64,000 bases of DNA from Methanomicrobiales archaeon. GTDB lineage: Archaea; Halobacteriota; Methanomicrobia; Methanomicrobiales; Methanospirillaceae. The first letter of the stretch is position 1. Every line of letters starts with the position of its first letter. The translations under genes were made by a program, and so were the position numbers. Of the stretch, positions 59,897 through 63,505 are shown piece by piece. The DNA lies in assembly GCA_012729535.1 (NCBI GenBank), contig JAAYCY010000055.1, positions 62,001 to 126,000 of the forward strand, given 5' to 3'. Under the pieces are notes generated by a model. That model did not search any database. It worked only from the letters and a program-made list of their open reading frames with translations, and was not told the DNA's origin.

Positions 59897-61015
59897 TCAG
59901 AGAATTTTCTGATAAATACTTTCCAGCAAGGAGGAAATTTTATCCCAGTCATGTTTTTGCACATAATTTTGCATAACATTCTGATCCGGCCTGGTACGCA
60001 GGTACTGTTTAATCCCGCTCGCAACATCAGGTGCATTTGGATCAGCAAGATATCCAGAACCTGGAAGTACATGTTCAGAAGCAGCATTGAGTGGATATCT
60101 TGTAGTTACGATGGGAAGCCCACAGGCCATTGCTTCAATACAGACTATTCCGAATCCTTCCCTTTTACTGGGAAGAACAAAGACCTTTGCAGTTTTCATT
60201 CTACTGATAACCTCGTTATAATCTTTGACAAAACCGCAAAGAGTAACATTTTCTGATAATTCCAAATCCTGAATTTGAGTCTTTATTTCTTGCATCATCG
60301 GTCCGTCTCCAATTATCAGGCAGGAAAGACGGGGAAAATCACTCTTCAAAATTTTTATTGCTTTAATGAATAGTTCTGGTTGTTTTTCTGGTATTAACCG
60401 CCCAATAAAGATGACATCAACAGGATTTTTTCCAGGAGGAACAACTGATATATCAGTCAGGTTAATTCCATTTGGAATAATGAAACTCTCTTTCTGATAA
60501 CCTTCTTTCTTCATTAATTCACTGGTATGGCATGAAACTGAAATTGAAAGGTCAGATAACAAAAGTGTTATTATTTCAGTTATTCTTCCAAATGCTCCTG
60601 CAATCCCTAAGTATTGATACCAAAAGTCACCCCAACATTCGTGCCAGGTAATAATACATCTTTCCTTCTTACAAAAACCTACTATACGGGAAACGATGAC
60701 TGGAAAGTAGGGAAAATTCTGGCAGTCAATAATGTCAACCCTCGTTTTTAATAAAACCGGAAAAAGATGTATCGAATACCAGAGAGCCTGAAAAACAGAT
60801 CTTCTTCCCCCCGTGTACAATCCAATTGGACGGCATACCTCGTGAATGATGATCCCATTCGAAACAGCTATGCTTTCCTTATTGGATGGCCTCATGGGAA
60901 AAAGGTGTATTTCATGACCTTTTTCTGCAAGACGGGTTCCTATTTCAAAAATTCTTTTTTCTACTCCCCCAATGGTATCAGGGTACATTACATCATAGAC
61001 AAATGCTATTTTCAT
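59897..61015 (-). CDS. Glycosyltransferase family 4
   Basis: 372 residues with the GT-B fold of the GT4 family: IAFVYDVMYPDTIGGVEKR at the N-terminus, FIGRLIPEKQPELFIKA near residue 203 and the nucleotide-sugar E(x7)E motif in SKREGFGIVCIEAMACGLPI near 286. It transfers a sugar to a lipid or glycan acceptor, likely for surface polysaccharide or glycolipid. No other synthesis genes are adjacent. The start (ATG 61015) gives the standard N-terminal strand. Confidence 0.92.
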   Translation of the reverse strand: MKIAFVYDVMYPDTIGGVEKRIFEIGTRLAEKGHEIHLFPMRPSNKESIAVSNGIIIHEVCRPIGLYTGGRRSVFQALWYSIHLFPVLLKTRVDIIDCQNFPYFPVIVSRIVGFCKKERCIITWHECWGDFWYQYLGIAGAFGRITEIITLLLSDLSISVSCHTSELMKKEGYQKESFIIPNGINLTDISVVPPGKNPVDVIFIGRLIPEKQPELFIKAIKILKSDFPRLSCLIIGDGPMMQEIKTQIQDLELSENVTLCGFVKDYNEVISRMKTAKVFVLPSKREGFGIVCIEAMACGLPIVTTRYPLNAASEHVLPGSGYLADPNAPDVASGIKQYLRTRPDQNVMQNYVQKHDWDKISSLLESIYQKIL

Positions 61016-61068
61016 GAATTTTGCCAGGATTGCTATGTTTAATTACATATAGCCGTATGAATAAATGA

Positions 61069-62286
61069 ATGAGTCAGATGCAGTGCATCTCGTTTGCCGG
61101 TTCTGGTGTCAGGGAAAAAAGAAGGTATTGCAGAGATTCCATTTGTATTGAGACTGATATAGTTCAGGAAGCTATATATCATCTCTATAAACCGGATGAG
61201 CTCATCATTCTCCTGTCTGATCCCACTGCTGCAGGAATAACAGCATCACTCGAGAAACGGGCAATTCCGGTGACAAAAACCTGGATACCGCATGGAACTA
61301 CAGAAGATCAGCTCTATGAAATCTTTGGAACCATATGTAACAGTGTCAAAGATGATGAAGTTGTTCTTTTTGATATTACCGCGGGTTGTCATTCTCTCCC
61401 TTTTATGACTTTCCTTGCTGCTTCTTATCTCCGCTCGGTCAGAAATATTACGATAGTTGGGGTGATTTATGCACCTCATGTAGATGAACATGGGTTCTGC
61501 CGTTTTATTGATCTAAAACCAATGATGGAAATCCTGGACTGGATTTCCGGGGTGCAGGCGGTGACCAGGTACCTGGATGCCGAGCCGTTATATTCTCTGG
61601 TCAATACTCTCCAGGGAGACATTCACCGGGGTGGAGAGGATCCTGATCCCCCGGTAAGACTAACCGGATGGGCAAGTCTTCTAAGGCAGTTTAGTGATTC
61701 AGTTCGTCTTTCCCGTCCAGTCGATGCTATGTATGCAGCCTCAGGAATTGTACGTGACATAGATGAGGTGGATGAAGAACTTGAGAGGTTTGCTCCAGCT
61801 CTTATACCGGTCATTGAATCTGCAAGGGACATTTCAGTACTTGCTGCAGAACCTGAACTTACCTTCTGTACATCAGAGTACATAAGAAAACAGATTGGCC
61901 TGATTGCATTTCAATTGGAAAAAGGATTGTATCTCCAGGCTGTAACATTGGGGAGGGAGGTTCTCATAACTCTTCTCATGATAAAAATGGGTATTGACAG
62001 TGAATGGAAGGATGCAGATATCCGTCACGAGGTTTCCAGGACCCTGACTGGTGGTGCACTGGCAGTCCAGCAAAAACCATATGAAAAGACCGAATATTCA
62101 GATGTTCTGGTCAGGTATTCAGACTGGAAAGAAATGGTTCTCATCTGGGTCAGGATTTCAGATCTTAGGAATAATCTGGCTCATTGTGGGATGAACCGCC
62201 GGAATGACAGTATCAGGTCATTACTCAGGCGTGCATCAGATATCCTACCTGAAATTGAACGCTTTTTGCTACTTTGCGGTAAATAA
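61069..62286 (+). CDS. Orphan CARF-HEPN protein (Csx1/TM1812-like)
   Basis: 405 residues. The N-terminal Rossmann part (about 1-170) has the features of CARF-type CRISPR accessory proteins: ISFAGSGVREKRRYCR at the start, then IILLSDPTAAGITASLEKRA, and VVLFDITAGCHSLPFMTFL (Asp102 to Pro111), a variant of the family's D-x-T-H-G...LP motif with Ala in place of His. The C-terminus is helical and ends with SDLRNNLAHCGMN, an Rx4H HEPN ribonuclease motif (Arg367, His372). In the family, CARF binds cyclic oligoadenylate and turns on HEPN RNA cleavage. No cas gene or CRISPR array is in the window, so it may respond to a distant type III system or another signal. Confidence 0.8.
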   Translation: MSQMQCISFAGSGVREKRRYCRDSICIETDIVQEAIYHLYKPDELIILLSDPTAAGITASLEKRAIPVTKTWIPHGTTEDQLYEIFGTICNSVKDDEVVLFDITAGCHSLPFMTFLAASYLRSVRNITIVGVIYAPHVDEHGFCRFIDLKPMMEILDWISGVQAVTRYLDAEPLYSLVNTLQGDIHRGGEDPDPPVRLTGWASLLRQFSDSVRLSRPVDAMYAASGIVRDIDEVDEELERFAPALIPVIESARDISVLAAEPELTFCTSEYIRKQIGLIAFQLEKGLYLQAVTLGREVLITLLMIKMGIDSEWKDADIRHEVSRTLTGGALAVQQKPYEKTEYSDVLVRYSDWKEMVLIWVRISDLRNNLAHCGMNRRNDSIRSLLRRASDILPEIERFLLLCGK

Positions 62287-62294
62287 TAAAAAAT

Positions 62295-63293
62295 TTATTT
62301 ATCCAGGTCTTTAAATTGGGGCATAGTGGCCCTAATTTCTTTCCCTACCTCTTCAATCAGGTGCTCTTCATCGTCCCGGGTCAGAGCAGTAAACATCGGA
62401 CGGTTGACCATGTTTTCAAGCATCCATTCCTTTGCAAATGTTCCTGACTGGATCTCTTCAAGGATCTCCTGCATGGCAAGGTAAGATTCCTGTCCGATAA
62501 CACGGGGTCCACGGGTCAGGTCTCCATACTGGGCGGTATTTGAGATGTACTTTCTCATCTTGGTAAATCCGCCTTCATAAATCAGGTCAACAATCAGTTT
62601 TGTTTCATGGAGGACTTCAAGATATGCCATTTCCGGAGCATATCCGGCTTCTACCAGGGTTTCAAAACCGGCCCGAATCAGTGAAGTCATTCCTCCACAT
62701 AATACTGCCTGTTCTCCAAAGAGGTCTGTTTCTGTTTCTTCACGGAATGATGTTTCAAAGACAACCGCACGGGTGGCTCCAATCCCTTTAGCATATGCAA
62801 GGGCAAGTTTTTTGGCTTTTCCAGAAACGTCCTGGTGAATTGCAATAAGTGCGGGTACACCCTTTCCTTCGGTATATGTACGCCGTACCATGTGACCTGG
62901 TCCTTTTGGCGCAACCATTACCACGTCCACGTCAGAGGGTGGAACTATCTGGCCGAAATGGATATTAAAACCATGAGAGAACATGAGGGTCTTACCCTTG
63001 GAGAGTCCCTTTGCAATCTGCTCCCGGTATACTGCTCCCTGGTGTTCATCAGGAATAAGGACCTGGATGACATCTCCCTTTTTTGCAGCATCAGCAACTT
63101 CCATCACTTCAAAGCCTTCACTTTTCGCAAGGTCCCAGCTTTTTCCAGGACGAAGACCGATGATGACTTTAAGTCCGCTGTCTTTAAGGTTTAATGCCTG
63201 ACCTCTGCCCTGTGATCCATATCCGATGACTGCTATTGTCTTTGATGAGATAGCAGACATGTCGGCATCCTTGTCATAATACTTCTCTAACAT
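62295..63293 (-). CDS. ilvC: Ketol-acid reductoisomerase IlvC
   Basis: 332 residues from ATG 63293, preceded by AGGAGG at ideal distance; the frame is open to 63413 but those 40 residues are not in the family. The NADP-binding motif is [19 protein letters not shown] near 20. Other landmarks are [29 protein letters not shown] and the C-terminal knotted helices ([17 protein letters not shown]). It makes the dihydroxy acids of the valine/isoleucine pathway. The usual neighbour genes ilvB and ilvN are not in view to its right. Confidence 0.96.
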
Positions 63294-63505
63294 GGGTGTC
63301 CTCCTGTTTTCCTTCTCAATCATAGGGGTGTACGTGATATCTTTTTTCCCTATTTTCCCTATAAATTCTAACCATTGAACAGAATCAGCTTCATCTTTTT
63401 TCATGTGGTGCATTATCGCGCACCCAATGCACCAGGCAGGTGAGATCCACTACCAGAGTCCTTATCCTATCATACATCAAGGATTCTGTTACTGGTGTTA
63501 GGTAT

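Follow-up and report, generated by a model that had tools for sequence, protein, structure and literature searches.

The orphan gene and its product

The window, the whole 64,000-nucleotide stretch of Methanospirillaceae DNA that was analyzed, carries at 61069..62286 (+) an uninterrupted open reading frame of 405 codons that ORF reading, profiles, and predicted fold identify as an orphan CARF-HEPN (CARF2/Csx1-like) gene for a protein of 405 aa. Its neighbors are those of the initial annotation, each recognized by profile matches and synteny: a GT4 glycosyltransferase (59897..61015, −) and ilvC for ketol-acid reductoisomerase (62295..63413, −), the latter convergent with the orphan. The divergent starts of the orphan and the GT4 gene are separated by 53 bp (61016..61068), and this divergent order is kept in the genus. 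Further out lie what we take, partly by sequence reading, to be DUF1805, Usp, AIM24-like, leuA-like, ilvB-like, and ilvN-like genes. The GT4 protein scores above cut-off against PF20706 (GT4 in conflict systems), with still higher scores from general glycosyltransferase models. A direct-repeat scan of the window revealed no repeat array. Two tandem 102-nt copies, 75% alike, are found at 1636-1839 and are not a CRISPR array. Viral carriage of the orphan was rejected, no relative being found among the viral contigs searched.

The PADLOC CARF2--CARF_HEPN profile PDLC01824 matches residues 4-400 of the protein (E=9.8e-79), and several PADLOC Csx1 models also match, at E=1e-63 to 1e-65. NCBIfam TIGR02221 (cas_TM1812) matches residues 66-178 (E=4.6e-20) with a score of 72.5 bits, under the NCBI cut-off of 76.25 bits, which is consistent with a divergent CARF box. 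Pfam gave neither a match above cut-off nor an AAA+ match, and a PDB search with the single sequence returned zero matches; both being uninformative, profiles were needed. A 38-row profile of relatives matched PDB entry 8y75 over the full length (E=2.5e-24). The AlphaFold2 model (mean pLDDT 93.1) has as its top Foldseek match the Marinitoga Csx1-Crn2:cA4 complex 8y7g (E=2.8e-17, TMq 0.78), other matches being Sulfolobus islandicus SisCsx1 (6qzt, E=7e-12) and Thermus Csm6; the PDB fold matches below E=0.001 comprise Csx1, Csm6, and one uncharacterized Sulfolobus protein. A different fold is thus ruled out by the PADLOC profiles, the 38-row profile against the PDB, and Foldseek. Because profile matches and predicted fold agree, fold and family can be considered settled, and it is virtually certain that the protein is a CARF-HEPN of the Csx1/CARF2 (TIGR02221-like) family, in keeping with the CARF-like N-terminus and HEPN C-terminus first recognized from the sequence. 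Marinitoga Csx1-Crn2 (PDB 8y6z, 8y75, 8y7g), the best solved match by both profile and fold, is a type III protein with the canonical box FDLTHGLR and a fused Crn2 ring nuclease, whereas the orphan has no ring nuclease domain.

The domain boundaries are approximate. The CARF sensor domain (~residues 1-165; 61069..61563, +) is delimited by the TIGR02221 coverage and a Rossmann-like order of strands and helices in the model, which also places a helical linker between CARF and HEPN at ~residues 166-265 (61564..61863, +). The HEPN ribonuclease domain (~residues 266-405; 61864..62283, +) is all-helical in the model, and PADLOC Csx1 profile PDLC01687 covers residues 269-399. Its catalytic motif RNNLAH (Rx4H), picked out in the initial annotation, is located at residues 367-372 (62167..62184, +) and is intact from R367 to H372. 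R367, N368, A371, H372, C373, and G374 are invariant in all orphans and in all 37 type III-associated homologues used for comparison.

Elsewhere in this domain, position 323 (62035-62037) is Glu in 35 of the 37 type III-associated homologues. All members of the three orphan groups described below have Ser, Ala, or Gly instead, even though the groups lack a single origin; Glu is kept in the lone orphan of genome G017, and Asn is aligned there in the active SyCsx1. A literature search on the role of Csm6 Glu337 found nothing.

The altered CARF pocket

The variant DITAGCHSLP of the DxTHG box occupies residues 102-111 (61372..61401, +). The replacement of its His by Ala (Ala105) was confirmed and can be refined, as the basic residue three positions on is also changed, from Arg to His108; an intact DxTHGxR ligand box is therefore absent from the protein (DITAGCH). 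The comparison was made against 37 homologues from Cas10 genomes or from beside cas genes, chosen blind to the motif. Thr50, Asp102, Thr104, and Arg108 are present in 37/37 of these and His105 in 34/37, its place being taken by Leu, Gln, or Asn in the remaining three. The alignment shows a further change in the orphan at the end of a CARF strand, where Ser50 (61216..61218, +) stands for the Thr of the reference set.

The Methanospirillum orthologues fall into two clades within which the pocket residues are fixed. Clade A (six rows including the window protein) has Ser50, Ala/Ser105, and His108, with the box DIT[A/S]GCH, and retains Tyr20, Asp102, Thr104, and Gly106. Clade B (four rows) has Arg/Gln50, Asp105, and Arg/Asp108, with the box D[V/I]TDG(H/R)(R/D), and additionally lacks Phe9, Gly11, Tyr20, and Asp148. 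A count restricted to columns with at least 90% conservation among the reference homologues showed more changes in CARF than in HEPN, significantly so in clade B (p=0.03) and at the borderline in orphan group ii of related methanogens (p=0.06). Clade A (p=0.68) and group iii (p=0.55) gave no such excess. For clade A, it is thus the identity of the altered residues, and not their number, that carries the argument.

Two characterized homologues bear upon these positions. SyCsx1 (Slr7061 of Synechocystis pSYSA; TIGR02221/csx2) aligns over 97% of the length at 26% identity and is like the orphan in its CARF-HEPN order and its HEPN motif RN(N/D)LAHCGM; it differs in residing in a type III-D locus with the box DFTHGYR, whereas the orphan has no type III locus. 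SyCsx1 is proven to be cA4-activated and cytosine-specific (PMC9676260), whereas the RNase activity of the orphan is a prediction. In the alignment, H117 and R120 of SyCsx1 correspond to Ala105 and His108 of the orphan protein, and clade B has Asp at H117. Either substitution H117D or R120A nearly abolishes the cA4-triggered RNase activity of SyCsx1 (PMC9676260). The orphan CARF is thus changed at residues on which a homologue depends for its response to cA4, and these published mutants strengthen the original suggestion that ligand binding may differ. In SisCsx1, activity remains detectable with H155A or N158A and is lost with H155D/N158D (PMC6754442). The orthologue L010 (DITDGRD) naturally possesses Asp at both positions aligned with H155/N158. 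Since SisCsx1 H155A is still active, the His-to-Ala change of the orphan alone would not exclude cA4.

Conservation, Cas10 content, and related orphans

Full-length orthologues are present in ten Methanospirillum genomes (G000-G005, G007-G010), with zero stops and zero frameshifts. In an eleventh, G011, the gene is truncated by the end of a contig to its C-terminal part, and the orphan was not found in one genus genome, G006, which is 84% complete. The GT4 - orphan - ilvC order is kept wherever the contig reaches, at 46-73% identity, and the synteny holds down to 46-48% identity between clades A and B. In a search of other genera for an empty GT4-ilvC site, the GT4 relatives had no ilvC within 1.5 kb flanks. 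Pairwise Nei-Gojobori dN/dS is 0.06-0.10 for the whole gene and low in both domains, the CARF part giving 0.03-0.11 where dS is unsaturated. These values indicate strong purifying selection on a gene that is maintained, in its CARF domain as in its HEPN domain.

The assembly of the organism itself (3.09 Mb, 86 contigs, 96.8% complete) yielded no Cas10 palm, RAMP, or mCpol in profile searches, the absence of Cas10 being judged by one Cas10 profile plus a RAMP profile. The absence of cas genes from view thus extends from the window to the genome as searched with these profiles, apart from a single Cas1 match on another contig (L113:5174-6109, G000:C18), which by ORF reading is presumably flanked by a phosphoglycerate kinase-like gene upstream and a phosphoglucomutase-like gene downstream. 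In this Cas1, Asn stands in place of the catalytic His that aligned Cas1 proteins have in their GF[LF]H motif (GFLN for GFLH), which fits the vertically inherited Cas1-solo group 1, a group described as exclusive to Methanomicrobiales and without a full active site (PMC4046053). The same genome contains a CBASS-like cassette (L112:7935-10858, G000:C51) encoding a DUF4041/T5orf172 protein, an SMODS cyclase, and an SLATT_4 membrane protein.

Among the 12 genomes of the genus, Cas10 occurs somewhere in six. It is absent genome-wide from four of the more complete ones, two of them closed; G001 and G008 (each closed in a single contig) and G004 (99% complete) have neither Cas10 nor RAMP and keep the orphan. 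An assembly gap hiding an adjoining type III locus was rejected, as the single-contig genomes have the same gene order without Cas10. Also rejected was an mCpol/CARF-HEPN minimal system, the mCpol profile having no match in 12/12 genus genomes. The type III genomes G003 (which we take to be M. hungatei JF-1), G009, G010, and G007 possess separate, different CARF-HEPN genes besides the orphan, with the box D[IL]TH[GA].R, mostly DITHGFR. Three CARF-HEPN proteins of the genus from the type III side (L018, L019, L020) share architecture and family with the orphan and differ in having the canonical DITHGFRSLP, at ~31-34% identity to it. With no Cas10 or RAMP in its genome and with fixed non-CRISPR neighbors, the orphan locus is without type III linkage, and the genus-wide synteny likewise gave no instance of an adjoining type III locus in relatives.

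A CARF-HEPN of the orphan's family occurs in 25 of 199 genomes of the order, and Cas10 accompanies it in only 8 of them. Besides the Methanospirillum genes there are two further groups of orphans, each orphan group forming one clade, and a lone orphan in G017 with the box DITQGFR. Group ii (eight rows: L049:8294-10231 and L074-L080) has the fixed order fmdE - orphan - ABC permease/ATPase - cofC, in which the ABC and cofC genes are presumably such, being named by sequence reading, and the upstream gene is of the FmdE family (PF02663 plus a weak zinc-finger match); in G014 the orphan touches fmdE. The boxes of this group are altered (DLT[YH]A.G or EIQNGSR), and the Cas10 profile found none in its genomes. 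Group iii, of genus g30 (L146:9766-11007, L147:9346-10587, L148:9770-11011, L149:2642-4000, L151:2459-3723), lies between apparent rRNA genes and recQ in genomes where no Cas10 was found, and keeps the canonical DITHG[FY]RS; its copy in G193 is split into two ORFs.

A common clade of the Methanospirillum and fmdE-cofC groups was not rejected (AU p=0.22), and the two may share one origin; cofC is found within several kilobases of both. A single origin including group iii was rejected (p=5e-32), and the exit from CRISPR has therefore probably occurred at least twice. Because group iii combines a canonical box with the absence of Cas10, Cas10 loss and pocket change do not always coincide. A strict rule equating the two also fails on the three type III-associated homologues without His105. 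Independent cases were too few for a tree-aware test (independent pairs) of a link between Cas10 loss and the pocket.

Candidate signals and function

The gene probably encodes a dimeric single-strand ribonuclease of the CARF-HEPN type, descended from Csx1. It would have departed from CRISPR and become a chromosomal gene that is fixed in Methanospirillum and inherited vertically. By analogy with the family, two CARF domains would make one pocket; a ligand bound there would alter the dimer and open the composite HEPN site, which would then cut cellular single-stranded RNA and slow growth, with growth arrest by RNA cleavage as the presumed outcome. The altered pocket and the missing Cas10 suggest that the switch may be another small, probably host-made signal, not Cas10-made cA4. 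Candidates would be a cyclic nucleotide or RNA ends such as those sensed by the CARF of RtcR. Every Methanospirillum genome encodes one or more DAC (c-di-AMP synthase) proteins, and 9/12 encode two; c-di-AMP is therefore one host-made candidate.

RtcR offers a precedent, by analogy, for a CARF domain that reads RNA damage: tRNA halves with a 2',3'-cyclic phosphate terminus are bound by its CARF (PMC7790460). Like the orphan, it has a CARF outside CRISPR with a divergent pocket; according to PMC4012209, RtcR proteins mostly lack the basic residue after strand 4, where the orphan has His. It differs in being a sigma-54 activator with AAA+ and HTH domains and no RNase, whereas the C-terminal half of the orphan is HEPN. 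Orphan CARF genes in general are already on record, Makarova et al. 2014 (PMC4012209) stating that each CARF family has genes unlinked to CRISPR-Cas. To this record the Methanospirillum case adds a variant; the passages of the paper that were consulted contain no genus-wide fixed locus, substitutions at cA4-response residues, or repeated orphan groups, and the Makarova 2020 classification may list some of the loci.

The explanation that in our judgment probably holds is a fixed, Cas10-independent, signal-gated RNase, the gating being probably by something other than cA4. Independence from Cas10 is very likely; a ligand other than cA4 is, taken separately, somewhat favored. It is rather unlikely that the orphan is instead a trans-acting Csx1 that still answers the cA4 or cA6 of transient type III systems in the genus and tolerates its altered pocket. 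Half of the genus genomes do have a Cas10, clade A retains four of the pocket residues listed above, and the SisCsx1 result (PMC6754442) shows that a Csx1 can survive the loss of this His; against this, the orphan persists and is conserved in genomes that lack Cas10, the type III loci of the genus come with separate canonical CARF-HEPN genes, and the Asp of clade B occupies the position at which H117D leaves SyCsx1 almost inactive. Also conceivable, with a lower probability still, is a CARF that serves as a dimer scaffold without any small ligand, the HEPN domain being controlled by a partner or constitutively weak. This would accommodate the different ways in which the clades lost pocket residues, and the abstract of PMC9650030 describes direct binding of RtcA and RtcB to the CARF of RtcR. 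It sits poorly with a constraint on CARF that approximates that on HEPN, with pocket residues fixed within clades, and with neighbors that differ among the orphan groups and include no travelling partner gene.

Two further readings are highly improbable. A relic in decay, left behind by a vanished type III locus, could account for the split gene in G193, whereas the ten full-length genus orthologues are unbroken, with invariant catalytic residues and dN/dS of ~0.1 or below. As for an effector of a CBASS-type cyclase, the SMODS cyclase of the genome is unmistakable (E=1e-54), yet it sits in a separate cassette on contig C51 with its own SLATT_4 membrane protein, and none is found beside the orphan. 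The SMODS family is above its cut-off in 0/11 other genus genomes, and the cyclase is therefore not the conserved partner.

Beyond the signal-gated, Cas10-independent RNase that we prefer for this locus, a wider proposal can be put forward only tentatively: that a CARF-HEPN lineage may have left CRISPR and been re-tuned to an endogenous non-cOA signal, giving a Cas10-free, single-gene alarm-and-cut system fixed genus-wide, with a parallel at fmdE-cofC in related methanogens. With few exceptions, CARF-RNase fusions are interpreted as receivers of cyclic oligoadenylates that Cas10 makes. In the present case, natural variants match laboratory mutants that barely answer cA4, and the RNase site is under strong selection without detectable Cas10. 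This cautions against taking a genomic CARF-HEPN gene as evidence of type III signalling, and the question of what else CARF domains sense becomes testable with a few proteins of cultured species, for example M. hungatei JF-1. It has been proposed that CARF-HEPN signalling preceded the full CRISPR effector (PMC6452270); a host-made ligand, if found, would bear upon this idea by showing that such signalling can run without a CRISPR effector.
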